Source of the DNA: Pseudomonas sp. ACM7
GTDB taxonomy: Bacteria; Pseudomonadota; Gammaproteobacteria; Pseudomonadales; Pseudomonadaceae
Direction of reading: 5' to 3'
NCBI RefSeq assembly: GCF_004136015.1
Contig: NZ_CP024866.1
Location: 450,327 to 514,326, forward strand
Length of the DNA: 64,000 nucleotides
Shown here: one piece after another, positions 12,525 through 24,139 of the stretch
How positions within the stretch are numbered: position 1 is the first letter of the stretch
How the letters are laid out: each line of letters starts with the position of its first letter
Program-made: the position numbers and the translations under genes
The notes under the pieces: model-generated
The model's database searches: none
What the model was told of the DNA's origin: nothing
What the model saw: the letters and a program-made list of their open reading frames with translations, nothing else

Positions 12525-12618
12525 GTCGGAACGCCGCCCGGAGCAAGCCCGCACACATTCGATCGCATTCTTTCTGAAAGAACTGGGTTAAATGTGGGAG
12601 CGGGCTTGCTCGCGAATG
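12525..12618. repeat. REPIN (family 1, imperfect pair)
   Basis: A degenerate left copy (GGAGCAAGCCCGC within 12525-12555) and a canonical right copy (TGTGGGAGCGGGCTTGCTCG at about 12594-12613) face each other. It lies between the LysR gene and liuR. Confidence 0.75.
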
Positions 12619-12707: not shown

Positions 12708-13109
12708 ATGAGCAGCCAGACCTATAGCATTTCCGACCTCGCCCGCGAGCTCGACATCACCACCCGGGCCATTCGCTTTTATGAAGAGCAAGGCCTGCTC
12801 AGCCCCGAGCGACGCGGTCAGGAACGCATCTACTCGCCCCGTGACAAGGTCAGCCTGAAGCTGATCCTGCGGGGCAAGCGCATTGGTTTCTCCCTGGCCG
12901 AATGCCGCGAGCTGATCGAACTCTACGATCCCTCCGGCGGCAATCAGAAACAGCTGCAAACCATGCTGACCAAAATCGCCGAACGTCGTGAACAGCTCGA
13001 GCAGCAGATGCTCGACATCGAACAGATGAAGCTGGAACTGGACACCGCGCAGGAGCGTTGCACCCAGGCGCTGGAACAGACCATCAAGAGCCAGCAGGTC
13101 ATTCAGTAG
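12708..13109 (+). CDS. liuR: MerR-family regulator LiuR of leucine/isovalerate catabolism
   Basis: A 133-residue MerR-type protein. The helix-turn-helix and wing are at residues 5-75 (YSISDLARELDITTRAIRFYEEQGLLSPERRG), and a C-terminal dimerisation coiled coil at about 80-128 is rich in Glu, Gln and Leu. No cysteine cluster for metal binding is seen; one Cys sits in the CTQALEQ segment. LiuR proteins control the liu genes for leucine degradation in gamma-proteobacteria. Support here is the identical palindrome upstream of this gene and of liuA. In this strain it sits beside mvaB, not beside liuA, separated from mvaB by a REPIN. Confidence 0.9.
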   Translation: MSSQTYSISDLARELDITTRAIRFYEEQGLLSPERRGQERIYSPRDKVSLKLILRGKRIGFSLAECRELIELYDPSGGNQKQLQTMLTKIAERREQLEQQMLDIEQMKLELDTAQERCTQALEQTIKSQQVIQ

Positions 13110-13252: not shown

Positions 13253-14152
13253 ATGTCCCTACCCACTCACGTACGCCTGGTCGAAGTCGGCCCACGCGAC
13301 GGTCTGCAAAACGAAGCCCAACCCATCAGCGTTGCGGACAAGGTGCAACTGGTCGACGCGCTGACCGCCGCCGGTCTCGGCTATATAGAAGTCGGCAGTT
13401 TTGTTTCGCCCAAATGGGTACCGCAAATGGCCGGTTCCGCCGACGTCTTCGCGCAGATCCAGCGTAAGCCTGGCGTGACTTATGGTGCACTCGCCCCCAA
13501 CCTGCGCGGGTTTGAAGACGCCATTGCAGCCGGGGTCAAGGAAGTCGCGGTGTTCGCCGCCGCGTCGGAATCGTTTTCCCAGCGCAATATCAATTGCTCG
13601 ATCAGCGAAAGCCTGGAGCGTTTCGTGCCGATCATGGACGCCGCCAGGCAACACGGGGTCAGCGTGCGCGGTTACGTGTCCTGTGTGCTGGGCTGCCCTT
13701 ACGAAGGAAACGTCGCGCCGGAACAAGTCGCTCGAGTCGCTCGCGAGCTCTATGCGATGGGCTGCTATGAAGTTTCCCTGGGCGACACCATCGGCACCGG
13801 CACCGCTGGCGTGACCCGCAAGATGTTCGAGGTGGTGTCGGCCGACGTACCCCGTGAAAAACTGGCCGGGCACTTCCACGACACTTATGGCCAGGCCATG
13901 GCCAACATCTACGCCAGCCTGCTGGAAGGCATCTCGGTGTTCGACAGCTCCATCGCCGGCCTCGGTGGCTGCCCATACGCCAAGGGCGCCAGCGGTAACG
14001 TCGCCACCGAAGACGTGGTTTACCTGCTCAATGGCCTGGGTATCGAGACCGGTATCGACCTGGACGCCTTGATTCTGGCCGGTCAGCAGATTTGCACGGT
14101 GCTGGGGCGACCGACCGGTTCGCGCGTGGCCAAGGCTCGTAGCGCACAGTGA
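13253..14152 (+). CDS. mvaB: Hydroxymethylglutaryl-CoA lyase
   Basis: A 299-residue TIM-barrel lyase that splits 3-hydroxy-3-methylglutaryl-CoA into acetoacetate and acetyl-CoA, the last step of leucine degradation (LiuE role). Family motifs are clear: VEVGPRDGLQNE at the N terminus, SLGDTIGTGT (metal-binding region), HFHDTYGQA, and the signature GGLGGCPYAKGASGNVATED with the catalytic Cys. Length is standard. The gene is separated from liuABCD by about 2.7 kb containing crcY and an acyl-CoA synthetase, unlike the contiguous liuABCDE of P. aeruginosa, but like the mvaB locus I recall from P. putida. Confidence 0.95.
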   Translation: MSLPTHVRLVEVGPRDGLQNEAQPISVADKVQLVDALTAAGLGYIEVGSFVSPKWVPQMAGSADVFAQIQRKPGVTYGALAPNLRGFEDAIAAGVKEVAVFAAASESFSQRNINCSISESLERFVPIMDAARQHGVSVRGYVSCVLGCPYEGNVAPEQVARVARELYAMGCYEVSLGDTIGTGTAGVTRKMFEVVSADVPREKLAGHFHDTYGQAMANIYASLLEGISVFDSSIAGLGGCPYAKGASGNVATEDVVYLLNGLGIETGIDLDALILAGQQICTVLGRPTGSRVAKARSAQ

Positions 14153-14170
14153 GTGCGCGGATGTGTCCGG

Positions 14171-14214
14171 GTGTTACCGCTGCGTCTGAAACGTGGGGCG
14201 CAAGCGAGTAACAC
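14171..14214. promoter_or_regulatory. Candidate CbrB activator site upstream of crcY
   Basis: GTGTTAC (14171-14177) and GTAACAC (14208-14214) form an inverted repeat about 107-150 bp before the predicted crcY start. CbrB, the sigma-54 activator of crcZ/crcY genes, is reported to use TGTTAC/GTAACA half-sites. The 30-bp gap here is longer than the spacing I remember, so the pair may be two halves of separate sites. Confidence 0.6.
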
Positions 14215-14223
14215 GGAAACAAA

Positions 14224-14257
14224 TTGTCGGGTTTTGACTGAACGAAAAATCCGACAA
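14224..14257. other. Hairpin between mvaB and crcY promoter
   Basis: TTGTCGG (14224-14230) pairs with CCGACAA (14251-14257), extended inward by TTTT/AAAA. No T tract follows on the plus strand (the bases after it are AAAACTTAAGG), so it is not a standard terminator. It could slow read-through from mvaB or be part of the activator and bending region. Confidence 0.45.
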
Positions 14258-14294
14258 AAACTTAAGGCATTGATTTTAAAGGCTTTTTAAAAGT

Positions 14295-14310
14295 TGGCAC
14301 GGCTTCTGCT
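14295..14310 (+). promoter_or_regulatory. Sigma-54 (-24/-12) promoter of crcY
   Basis: TGGCACGGCTTCTGCT has GG (14296-14297) and GC (14308-14309) exactly 10 bp apart, and the full TGGCAC upper box. The transcript is expected to start near 14321. Confidence 0.88.
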
Positions 14311-14320
14311 ATCTCTACTG

Positions 14321-14699
14321 CATAACAAGAACAAAAAAAGCGGCAAACCTAATAAAAATAAGACGTAACGACTCTGACATAACAAAAACAACACGGCAGA
14401 GACGCAGCTAACAGATTTTTTTGGAGAGGATGTGCTTTTCAGGGTGCTTTTCGGAGTAACCCGCAACCGGGCAGAGAACAATAAAACTACCTTCAGGTAG
14501 CTACCGAATTGGTTGGATCGCTTAGCGAAAAAGTAGATCAGCGCTCAAAAAAATACGTTTGCTCTTGATCCCGGATGGGGATCGACAAAAACAGCGGTAA
14601 AGGGCCACGGTTTCCAAAAACAACAAAAGACCGCCCCTCAATAATAAAAAAAGAGCACGCGCAACGACAAAATTAAAGGGGAGCTTCGGCTCCCCTTTG
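14321..14699 (+). ncRNA. crcY: CrcY-type small RNA, antagonist of Hfq/Crc catabolite repression
   Basis: A roughly 379-nt non-coding transcript predicted between a sigma-54 promoter and a strong terminator. It has no plausible reading frame, is much more A-rich than flanking genes, and carries repeated A-rich motifs of the AAnAAnAA type that bind the distal face of Hfq with Crc. Examples are at 14324-14335 (AACAAGAACAAA), 14351-14362, 14381-14392 (AACAAAAACAAC), 14477-14487, 14616-14630 and 14640-14655. CrcZ, CrcY and CrcX RNAs are induced by CbrAB on poor carbon sources and titrate Hfq/Crc away from catabolic mRNAs. The position directly after mvaB is that of crcY in P. putida as I recall, which decides the name. 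Exact ends are inferred. Confidence 0.88.
14675..14698 (+). terminator. Terminator of crcY
   Basis: AAAGGGGAGC (14675-14684) pairs perfectly with GCTCCCCTTT (14689-14698) around a TTCG tetraloop. Confidence 0.92.
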
Positions 14700-14733
14700 T
14701 GCTTTCTGGCGTTTGACTTTCCCCCTCTCCAAA

Positions 14734-14823
14734 TGTGGGAGCGGGCTTGCTCGCGAAAGCGGTGTGTCAGTCAACATTTTCGTCGGCTGATACACCGCTT
14801 TCGCGAGCAAGCCCGCTCCCACA
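14734..14823. repeat. REPIN (family 1) between crcY and the acyl-CoA synthetase gene
   Basis: Canonical pair: TGTGGGAGCGGGCTTGCTCG at the left and CGAGCAAGCCCGCTCCCACA at the right, with additional complementary GCGGTGT/ACACCGC. It lies between convergent units. Confidence 0.93.
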
Positions 14824-14834
14824 GGGGATTGTGG

Positions 14835-16532
14835 TCAGCCTTTGATATCGCGCAATTCCTCGATGCTGATCTCGCGCATCCGAAACTTCTGAATCTTCCC
14901 CGTCACCGTCATCGGAAACTCTTCGACGAACTTGAAGTAACGCGGTGTCTTGAAGTGCGCGATGCGCTCCTTGCACCAGGCTTGCAGCTCCTGCTCGGTG
15001 GCGCTGTGGCCCGGATGGAACTTGATCCACGCGACAATCTCTTCGCCATACCGCGAGCACGGAATCCCGATCACTTGCACATCCGCGACTGCCGGATGGG
15101 TGAAGAAGAACTCTTCCAACTCCCGCGGGTAAATATTCTCACCGCCGCGGATGATCATGTCCTTGTTACGTCCGGCAATGCATACGTAGCCTTCGTCGTT
15201 CATGCTCGCCAGATCACCGGTGTGCATCCAGCCAGCCTGGTCGATGGCTTCCGCGGTGCCTTGCGGGTTGTTCCAGTAACCGAGCATCACGCTGTAGCCG
15301 CGGGTGCACAGCTCACCGATAGTGCCGCGCGGCACCAGGTTGCCCGCCTCGTCGATGATCTTGCTTTCCAGTTGTGGCTGGGTGCGACCGACGGTGGTGA
15401 CGCGCAATTCCAGTTCGTCTGACGGACCGGTCTGCAATGACACCGGACTTGTTTCCGTCATGCCGTAGGCAATCTGCACTTCGCTCATGTGCATCTCACT
15501 GATGACCCGACGCATCACTTCGATCGGACAGGTCGCCCCGGCCATGATCCCGGTGCGCAGGCTCGACAGATTAAATTCAGCGCGCTTGGGCTGATCGAGC
15601 ATGGCGATGAACATGGTCGGTACGCCGTAAAGCGCGGTGGCCTTTTCTTCGGCGACGGTGGTCAATGTCAGCAGTGGATCGAACGCATCGTTGGGGTAAA
15701 TCATGGTGCTGCCGTGGGTCATGCAACCGAGGTTGCCCATGACCATGCCGAAGCAGTGGTACAGCGGCACCGGGATGACCAGACGATCACTCGCGGTCAG
15801 GCCGAGGCTTTCGCCGACCATGTAACCGTTATTGAGAATGTTGTAGTGACTGAGGGTCGCGCCCTTCGGGAAACCAGTGGTGCCGGAGGTGTACTGGATG
15901 TTCACCGCCTGGTCGAAATGCAGGCTGTGCTGACGTTCGCTCAATTGCTCTGCCGACACGCTCCCCGCGAGATCGGTCAATTGCGACCACGGCAGGAAAC
16001 CCGATGGCGGCTGAGCATCAAGGCTGATGACACCGCGCAGTTCCGGCAGTCGTTCACTCTGCAATTTTCCGATGGAGTGCTCAGCCAACTCGGGAACGAG
16101 GCCTTGCAGCATCCCGTGATAGTCGGAGGTCTTGAAGGCGCCTGCGCAGACCAGCCATTGGCAACCGGATTGCTTCAACACATATTCGAGTTCGGAGCTG
16201 CGGTAGGCCGGATTGATGTTGACCAGAATCACGCCAATTTTCGCGCTGGCGAACTGACTGATACACCATTGGGCGCAGTTCGGTGCCCAGATACCCAGGC
16301 GATCACCGGTCTGCAAACCCAGCGCCAACAGCGCTCTGGCATGCAGGTCCACGGCTTCGGCCAATTGCTGCCAAGTGTAGCGCAACTGTTGATGGCGCAC
16401 GACCAGCGCCTCCCCGCTCGGATACTGCGCGACGGTGTTATCGAACGCCTGGCCGATGGTCATCGCCAGCAAGGCTTTGTCCTGGGAACCACGGGTGTAA
16501 CTGCGCTGCGGGCTTGCACTGGGTTGATCCAT
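14835..16532 (-). CDS. AMP-binding acyl-CoA synthetase
   Basis: A 565-residue member of the ANL adenylating superfamily. It activates a carboxylic acid through an acyl-adenylate to the CoA thioester. Motifs: [16 protein letters not shown] (P-loop, about 200-215), YGMTETSP (about 345), [13 protein letters not shown] (about 430) and the C-terminal [15 protein letters not shown] with the catalytic Lys. Its position between crcY and liuA, divergent from the liu genes with LiuR-type palindromes in the shared gap, suggests an organic acid feeding the isovaleryl-CoA pathway. The substrate is inferred, and a medium-chain fatty acid is the main alternative. An identical family member near liu genes is known in other pseudomonads. 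Confidence 0.92.
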
Positions 16533-23715: not shown

Positions 23716-23747
23716 TTGACTTGCAAACGAGAATGATTATTATTGCA
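23716..23747 (+). promoter_or_regulatory. prrF promoter with Fur box
   Basis: TTGAC (23716-23720) and TATTAT (23738-23743) form the promoter. GAGAATGATTATTATTGCA (23729-23747) resembles the 19-bp Fur consensus GATAATGATAATCATTATC and covers the -10 region, so Fur with iron should block initiation. Confidence 0.85.
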
Positions 23748-23750
23748 TGC

Positions 23751-23863
23751 AGCTGGTCGCGAGATCAGTCGATTGTCCAAGTGACCTTAGGTCGGTCTCC
23801 TGGACTATCTCCTCATCAGGCTAATCACGGTTTTTGACCCGGCTTTTTGCCGGGTCTTTTTTT
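23751..23863 (+). ncRNA. prrF: PrrF-type iron-responsive small RNA
   Basis: A transcript of about 113 nt from a Fur-controlled promoter to a strong terminator. The 5' hairpin CTGGTCGCGAGATCAG and the single-stranded core TCTCCTGGACTATCTCCTC match what I know of PrrF1/PrrF2. These RNAs pair with the 5' ends of mRNAs for iron-containing proteins (sodB, sdh, acn, ant genes) and cause their decay when iron is scarce. Only one copy is here, as in non-aeruginosa pseudomonads, where the two copies are dispersed. Whether it is PrrF1 or PrrF2 cannot be told. No protein-coding frame is needed to explain the interval. Confidence 0.9.
23836..23863 (+). terminator. Terminator of prrF
   Basis: GACCCGGC (23836-23843) pairs with GCCGGGTC (23849-23856) across a TTTTT loop, followed by seven T. 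Confidence 0.93.
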
Positions 23864-24139
23864 GCCAGTTATTCTGGCTTTACCTTCAGGCTAATGAAGT
23901 CTTTAGGTGCTGCAAATTCGAATGGCGCGGAGGATATCAAAAGAATATCCGTTGGCAAGAGAAGCCCAGCATCATTGGCCAAAACTGATCAAAAAATAGC
24001 GCTTGAGAATCAATCGTACAGTCTCTAAGCTGCGTCGGCGTCAAGGAGGACGCCCCCCGCTTCAGCGCAGAATTTCCCCCGGTTTTTCCCTTCCCAGCGT
24101 GTAAAGTAGCAGCCATAAAATCATATTCAGGAATCGACT
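23864..24139. other. Intergenic stretch after prrF
   Basis: I see no supported gene here. A 64-codon frame overlaps the prrF terminator and lacks a ribosome binding site. The last 80 bp probably hold the promoter and leader of the carboxypeptidase gene (TTCAGGAATCGACT before ATG 24140). Confidence 0.5.

Follow-up and report, generated by a model that had tools for sequence, protein, structure and literature searches.

A crcY small RNA gene behind mvaB in Pseudomonas sp. ACM7, and CbrB-linked candidate RNA genes across the Pseudomonadales

The window analyzed here, a 64-kb stretch of DNA from Pseudomonas sp. ACM7, carries on its plus strand (14322-14702) the small RNA gene crcY, the second CrcZ-family copy of this genome, whose product would be made under the control of CbrB and sigma-54 and would act by holding Hfq-Crc. 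We put the probability of this reading, identity and proposed working together, at about 95%. The gene adds one member to an established family, at an established location, and confirms a known design. Its value lies in the correct placement of a non-coding gene that is easily missed and in a conserved promoter layout that is at odds with the published CbrB consensus. The probable spread of the circuit through the order and the switch suggested for the Alcanivoracaceae matter more than crcY itself.

The crcY locus

A sequence-only reading of this DNA had proposed a CrcY-type RNA of about 379 nt directly after mvaB, with a covariance search as a check. The Rfam model for CrcZ (RF01675) matches there over its entire length (model positions 1 to 398, window positions 14322-14730) with a score of 364.7 bits, far above the gathering score of 95, which places the RNA in the CrcZ/CrcY/CrcX family; the family was already known, as that reading had said, and the place beside mvaB has been published for crcY of P. 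putida. From the promoter and the Rfam alignment, we infer a start at 14320-14322, an end at about 14700-14705, and a length of about 380 nt. The ACM7 genome contains one other RF01675 match (3740415-3740809) and no third copy. The other match lies 198 nt downstream of the CbrB gene, which is preceded by a gene for a CbrA-like protein of 984 residues with PAS, HisKA, and HATPase domains. It is therefore crcZ, and the copy in the window is crcY. The genome also encodes Crc, CbrB, and RpoN. The two RNAs are identical at 267 of 349 aligned bases (77%), and crcY resembles crcZ of ACM7, and of Pseudomonas generally, in RNA family, promoter type, CA motifs, and terminator; unlike crcY, crcZ sits behind cbrB, and its CbrB half-sites are in the published F1-R1-R2 layout. 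Across 36 genomes of the genus, ACM7 included, CrcZ-family copies number one in 6 genomes, two in 26, and three in 4, with none lacking the family. CrcX of P. syringae is described as a further copy under CbrB (PMC8871633), and the third copies are candidates for CrcX; ACM7 differs from P. syringae in having no such copy.

The sequence was read on both strands from the mvaB stop (14152) to the acyl-CoA ligase gene (14835-16532, minus strand), which is convergent with crcY. The mvaB gene for hydroxymethylglutaryl-CoA lyase (13253-14152, plus strand; model NF004283, 492 bits against a cut-off of 246) stands directly upstream of crcY and is preceded by an open reading frame for a MerR-family regulator (12708-13109, plus strand; MerR-type models with E values down to 2.5e-17, all under their curated cut-offs). 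This regulator is likely the counterpart of PP3539 of P. putida, a LiuR homologue that is cotranscribed with mvaB and crcY in a transcript yielding a processed form (PMC6292655), and its gene is possibly the first of a read-through transcript. A title cited in PMC8637051 places leucine catabolism genes of P. aeruginosa under the control of LiuR and CbrAB/Crc, and this control may bear on the placement of crcY. The search for mvaB gave more than 80 loci, and among the 80 kept from named genomes, 20 carry a crcY-type RNA, all of them in Pseudomonas, on the same strand and directly 3' of mvaB. Within Pseudomonas, Halopseudomonas, and Stutzerimonas records, the RNA follows mvaB at 20 of 34 loci and is absent from 14. 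In A. vinelandii, crcY sits at another place (PMC6292655), so the gene cannot be defined by its position beside mvaB. What is directly observed for crcY is its anatomy, its membership in the family, its copy number, its synteny, and its conservation.

Two other small RNAs were recognized in the window, both on the plus strand: the iron-regulated PrrF (23716-23864; RF00444, 156.3 bits against a cut-off of 90) and the Pseudomonas sRNA P14 (146-290; RF01669, 109.3 bits against a cut-off of 45). The sequence TGGGAGCGGGCTTGCTCGC, which we take to be a REP-like element, occurs in six plus- and six minus-strand copies as inverted pairs, one of them (14736-14821) directly after the crcY terminator and the others near 12595, 16578, 19617, 45708, and 47914.

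Promoter and RNA body of crcY

The promoter was examined in an alignment of 21 sequences, those of the window and of 20 named relatives. The sigma-54 element TGGCACGGCTTCTGC (14295-14309, plus strand) is an exact GG-N10-GC site, as had been claimed for it, and has one mismatch to the longer consensus TGGCAC-N5-TTGCW. The window contains 8 sites with one mismatch to that consensus and 56 with two or fewer (44.5 expected); because the consensus alone is not rare, the weight of the site rests on its place and on its conservation in all 21 promoters. Upstream lie the half-sites TGTTAC (F1, 14172-14177) and GTAACA (14208-14213), both on the plus strand and both present in 21 of 21 promoters, so that crcY has, on its sequence, the sigma-54 promoter with upstream CbrB half-sites that is typical of the family. 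They form the sole TGTTAC/GTAACA pair with a gap of 0 to 30 nt in the 64 kb, where 0.02 would be expected. The gap between them is 30 nt in ACM7, 29 nt in 15 of the 20 relatives, and 28 to 30 nt in 20 of the 21 promoters, the exception being 18 nt in L039.

The published CbrB consensus is TGTTAC-N12-14-GTAACA-N15-19-GTAACA (PMC8871633). The crcY promoters depart from this three-site arrangement: in all 21, the R1 slot, at a gap of 12 to 14 nt after F1, contains no match to GTAACA within one mismatch, and the published layout therefore fits crcY poorly. In P. putida, crcY has been described as having an extra subsite, R', at -112, and substituting R1 or R' left its expression unchanged (PMC6296734). 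The GTAACA of ACM7 is centered at about -111 from the inferred start and thus corresponds to R'. The TGTTAC/GTAACA repeat of the sequence-only reading is accordingly real (14172-14213), with a start that had been set one nucleotide off, and it consists of F1 and R' rather than of F1 and R1. R', dispensable in one P. putida assay, is invariant in all 21 promoters, whereas the R1 slot, also without effect there, is unconserved. Eight nucleotides after the start of GTAACA, a GRAACA begins in 21 of 21 promoters; in ACM7, it reads GAAACA (14216-14221, plus strand) and is, from its spacing, a candidate degenerate R2 half-site. Like CrcY of P. putida KT2440, the ACM7 gene follows mvaB and combines a sigma-54 promoter, F1 with R' near -112, and CA motifs in a CrcZ-like RNA; it differs in being known here from sequence and in its gap of 30 nt.

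The invariant GTAACA could have been kept for a reason other than CbrB, for example, to form an RNA hairpin with TGTTAC in a read-through transcript. F1 and GTAACA are reverse complements of each other and are paired in the predicted RNA fold, as such a hairpin would have it, but other families also have GTAACA 3' of cbrB, about as far from the sigma-54 site, and we regard this explanation as unlikely.

Between the half-sites and the sigma-54 element is an IHF-like site that the sequence-only reading had left unmentioned, TAAGGCATTGATT (14263-14275, plus strand), found at -32 from TGGCAC in 18 of 21 promoters; the window as a whole contains one IHF consensus site, with 0.9 expected. An inverted repeat (TTGTCGG..CCGACAA, 14224-14257, with arms at 14224-14235 and 14246-14257) was considered as the site of a further regulator and dropped, since it is not conserved among the relatives. 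In the interval between cbrB and crcZ of ACM7 (L149/L153, 3737000-3748000), the R2 half-site of crcZ, GTAACG, lies in the loop of an apparent cbrB terminator hairpin (AAGCCGGGGCTT..AAGCCCCGGCTTTTTTT), and binding of CbrB at R2 and termination of cbrB may interfere with each other.

The body of the RNA contains 12 overlapping AANAANAA motifs in exactly six clusters on the plus strand (14324-14337, 14351-14361, 14381-14391, 14477-14484, 14616-14626, and 14640-14650), which bears out the expectation of at least six AAnAAnAA-like motifs and gives crcY the several A-rich CA motifs of its family. As many motifs were reached in only 2 of 2,000 dinucleotide shuffles (mean, 2.55), and the 381-nt tiles richest in CA motifs in the window fall on crcY. 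Six clusters are also present in 18 of the 20 relatives, with seven in L056 and five in L063. The CA motifs of crcY are predicted to be unpaired.

A possible long-range helix joins AGCTAACAGATTTTTTTGG (14406-14424) to TCAAAAAAATACGTTTGCT (14545-14563), both on the plus strand; the helix is not significant in this sequence alone. Its score of 23 in crcY falls inside the range of shuffled sequences (mean, 21; maximum, 28), as does the score of 25 in crcZ of the same genome (mean, 22.3; maximum, 30), and the helix was rejected as a covariation-proven core. Against 60 shuffles, it scored above all in family f2 and in G162 of family f34, equaled or exceeded the shuffles in three Marinobacter sequences, and did not stand out in G187 of f34. 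The arms are found again, in 13 distinct pairs, in Pseudomonas, f2, f34, and Marinobacter and were not seen in Cellvibrio, Halomonas, Neptuniibacter, Marinobacterium, and families f38, f40, and f44. Varied pairs are few, so the arms indicate conservation of sequence only.

The RNA ends in an intrinsic terminator hairpin (14674-14699, plus strand) with the TTCG loop that had been noted, followed by a poor U-tract, TGCTTTCTGG. Terminator-like sites number 3 on both strands of 1.1 kb (1.4 expected), and that at 14674 is the sole one on the plus strand in 13900-15000. A terminator of mvaB ahead of crcY was considered and rejected, there being no plus-strand terminator-like site in that interval. 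For this reason, read-through from the regulator-mvaB unit into crcY may occur, and CrcY might even be mainly a product of processing, in line with the processed form reported for P. putida, with a level that tracks leucine/isovalerate catabolism rather than CbrB. We consider this improbable: the sigma-54 promoter and the half-sites are strongly conserved, and in P. putida, PcrcY-lacZ expression was reported to be 4.8-fold higher with oxaloacetate than in LB and mainly CbrB dependent (PMC6296734). That crcY is a decayed or silent relic of a duplication is hardly credible: the genome does have a second copy, and 6 of the 36 genus genomes have only one, but a relic would not keep a promoter, half-sites, and CA clusters that are conserved in 20 named relatives, 17 of which also have the IHF-like site.

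A functional crcY with its own CbrB-dependent promoter would work as follows. When good carbon sources are scarce, CbrA would activate CbrB, which would bind the TGTTAC/GTAACA half-sites 110 to 150 nt upstream of the crcY start; IHF would bend the promoter DNA, and the sigma-54 polymerase would fire at 14295-14309. The CrcY RNA of about 380 nt would then offer its six A-rich clusters to hold Hfq-Crc, freeing catabolic mRNAs, and read-through from the regulator-mvaB unit may yield additional, processed CrcY. The dependence on CbrB, RpoN, and IHF, the binding of Hfq-Crc, and the processing are carried over from relatives: activation of the sigma-54 polymerase by CbrB and IHF in poor carbon and titration of Hfq-Crc by the RNA have been described in P. 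putida, P. aeruginosa, and A. vinelandii, and work on promoters, binding, and expression in P. putida and A. vinelandii supports the design (PMC6296734, PMC6292655, PMC8871633).

CbrB and candidate sponge RNA genes across the Pseudomonadales

CbrAB has been called unique to the Pseudomonadaceae, with Pseudomonas and Azotobacter as its exclusive hosts (PMC8871633). The genomes compared here make it probable that CbrAB-CrcZ is ancestral to the Pseudomonadales as delimited in the GTDB, that the RNA can change in sequence beyond recognition, and that activator and target left sigma-54 jointly in the Alcanivoracaceae. On this reading, the RNA beside cbrB would be free to diverge in sequence, and what it keeps would be the promoter, the CbrB half-sites, and the CA motifs.

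The protein components are widespread. The CbrB of ACM7, used as a query, found one far-leading match in each of 18 other genomes (506 to 651 bits; next paralog, at most 324), among them named Marinobacter, Halomonas, Cellvibrio, Marinobacterium, and Neptuniibacter genomes. At an E value of 1e-120, a strong CbrB match was obtained for 130 of the 155 genomes from the order and for 72 of 87 genera, the weakest match (404 bits) being partial. Crc was present in 26 of 26 genomes tested (214 to 541 bits; next paralog, at most 127). CbrA-like proteins aligned over their full length at 47 to 63% (six proteins from six families), and PAS, HisKA, and HATPase domains were found in 7 of 7. Pfam did not find the SLC5 domain of CbrA, even in the ACM7 protein, and the orthology therefore rests on the full-length alignment and the other domains. 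No paper describing CbrB or CrcZ in these bacteria outside the Pseudomonadaceae was found among the openly licensed papers searched, an absence that is weak evidence. Community transcripts of cbrAB are reported in PMC5073097, and the genera are named in other contexts only in the relevant parts of PMC9049629, PMC8637051, and PMC10748600.

The CrcZ model, at an E value of 1e-3 per genome or better, matched 60 of 293 genomes, 12 in the Pseudomonadaceae and 48 elsewhere in the order. Outside the Pseudomonadaceae, three matches, all in family f2, exceeded the gathering score, and the weakest (22 to 25 bits) may be due to chance. In a set of 34 named genomes, 17 matched: above the cut-off, 12 that come only from records of Pseudomonas, Halopseudomonas, or Stutzerimonas, and, below it, 4 of 4 Marinobacter genomes (44 to 51 bits) and one Alishewanella (23 bits). 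No match was found in the named genomes of Halomonas (four), Marinobacterium (two), Cellvibrio, and Neptuniibacter. A sigma-54 activator gene stands directly upstream at 16 of 20 hit loci outside the Pseudomonadaceae; one of the remaining four is at a contig start, and three belong to family f8. Of the 13 loci with enough upstream sequence, 12 (all but L142) have a gene for a protein of 977 to 1,024 residues ahead of the activator.

About 1,300 nt after cbrB was then scored by a rule in one genome per genus for 72 genera (G062 was dropped for lack of sequence). The rule called for a [TC]GGCA[CT]-N7-GC site with at least one TGTTAC or GTAAC[AG] in the preceding 260 nt and for four or more CA motifs in the 500 nt that follow; no more than 2 of 200 shuffles, which kept base composition only, were allowed to reach the motif count. 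It was set after some 30 loci had been viewed (two sets of 21 and 19 that overlap in part), some of them from the same genera, so the test was not blind. The same rule was applied to the controls, 19 CbrB-like genes outside the order and 20 activator paralogs (9 + 11; L179 with only 295 nt). Under this nonblind rule, 54 of the 71 genera for which 500 nt or more were available passed (32 of 39 families), or 51 of 68 genera (31 of 38 families) when the Pseudomonadaceae are set aside. None of the 19 CbrB-like loci outside the order and none of the 20 paralogs passed; two of the former, G469 and G497, combine half-sites with a sigma-54-like site but contain at most one CA motif.

The 17 failing genera include four of family f43 and three of family f8. 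In f8, a CrcZ-model RNA lies upstream of pcnB at all three loci read (L140, L146, and L113), detached from cbrB, and in genome G219 of this family, the two are 187 kb apart. As an order-wide marker, pcnB was rejected, as it was recognized in the sequenced stretch at only 22 of the 54 passing loci. The failure in f26 is due to GTAACA sites that lie inside the end of cbrB, the locus fitting otherwise; f7 (G041) has half-sites and CA motifs without a matching sigma-54 site, and f9 (G043) has two CA motifs. In seven genera (G044, G052, G070, G077, G094, G154, and G185), no such RNA is visible after cbrB.

In Cellvibrio, which has no CrcZ-model match, the 800 nt after cbrB contain 29 CA motifs, against a mean of 3.1 and a maximum of 10 in shuffled sequence. 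The RNAs of f2, f34, and Marinobacter are very likely homologous to those of Pseudomonas because they share the arm sequences; for RNAs that agree in no more than position, promoter, and motifs, homology is presumed. Were the order-wide reading true, the Pseudomonas model could be used for the ranking of carbon sources in Marinobacter, Halomonas, Cellvibrio, and Alcanivorax, among them marine and oil-degrading bacteria. At one locus of family f38 (L164), cbrB is followed by CbrB half-sites and CA motifs in two tandem sets, an arrangement that suggests two successive sponge RNA genes. Second copies may also be marked by the late sigma-54 sites of G063 in f28 (465 nt) and of two further f38 genomes (610 and 718 nt).

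CbrB and the RNA promoter in the Alcanivoracaceae

Family f43 was named Alcanivoracaceae from its best named protein matches (Alcanivorax, Alloalcanivorax, and Isoalcanivorax). CbrB is present in 45 of its 46 genomes, which span 8 genera, with 30 of the 45 coming from two of them; the genome without it is 64% complete. The G[AS]FTGA motif is absent from all 45 proteins, including those of A. borkumensis, Alloalcanivorax venustensis, and Isoalcanivorax indicus. The loop is plainly deleted in 30, reads DALPGA in 6, and takes nine other forms once each, the nearest to the original being GAFEGA, GAFAGA, and GAFAAA. All 45 proteins retain the aspartate and lysine of the receiver, and 44 retain the Walker A pattern. 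In 37 CbrBs of other families, the motif is G[AS]FTGA in 36 and GAFSGA in one. All five f43 genomes tested for RpoN have it, and G[AS]FTGA is intact in each of the 10 f43 activator paralogs that were parsed (12 fetched from six genomes).

The DNA after cbrB has changed in the same family. In all 45 genomes, cbrB is followed by half-sites and by seven or more CA motifs, and the stretch contained no sigma-54 site in the four f43 genera of the order-wide test; across the family, there are five weak CGGCAT..CCGC matches 588 to 666 nt after cbrB, about 380 nt past TTGCA. A sigma-54 site is present at 26 of 30 CbrB loci of other families with at least 300 nt downstream. What follows cbrB in 44 of 45 f43 genomes is TTGCAW-N17-CANNAT, and the remaining one, L326, has TTGCCA-N17-CAGGAT. 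An IHF-like block was recognized at 16 of 45 f43 loci and 15 of 30 other loci; at 14 of the 16, TTGCA begins 27 nt after the block (30 nt at two), and in the other families, TGGCA begins 26 to 27 nt after it in 13 of 15. Since the distance from the block is nearly the same, the TTGCAW element stands in place of the sigma-54 element.

These observations suggest that CbrB and the RNA promoter of the Alcanivoracaceae switched jointly to a sigma-70-type circuit. CANNAT would be the -10 element, and the presumed order of events is that the circuit moved once to a sigma-70-type promoter, after which the unused CbrB loop would have decayed differently among genera. Some enhancer-binding proteins without GAFTGA are reported to act at sigma-70 promoters, as described for NtrC of Rhodobacter capsulatus and Caulobacter (PMC10274813), and the Alcanivoracaceae CbrB resembles these and VspR in the deletion or alteration of the AAA+ loop that contacts sigma-54. 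It differs in that the loss is coupled with a replaced promoter of the adjacent target RNA, in 44 of 45 genomes. If this reading is true, the family is a natural experiment on the joint departure of an enhancer-binding protein and its target from sigma-54.

In public annotation, the f43 CbrBs are often still called sigma-54 dependent. In family f26, the CbrB of genome G099 (L289) keeps GAFTGA and has a receiver that looks degenerate, LPLPTD replacing AKPFD, which suggests that this protein acts independently of phosphorylation.
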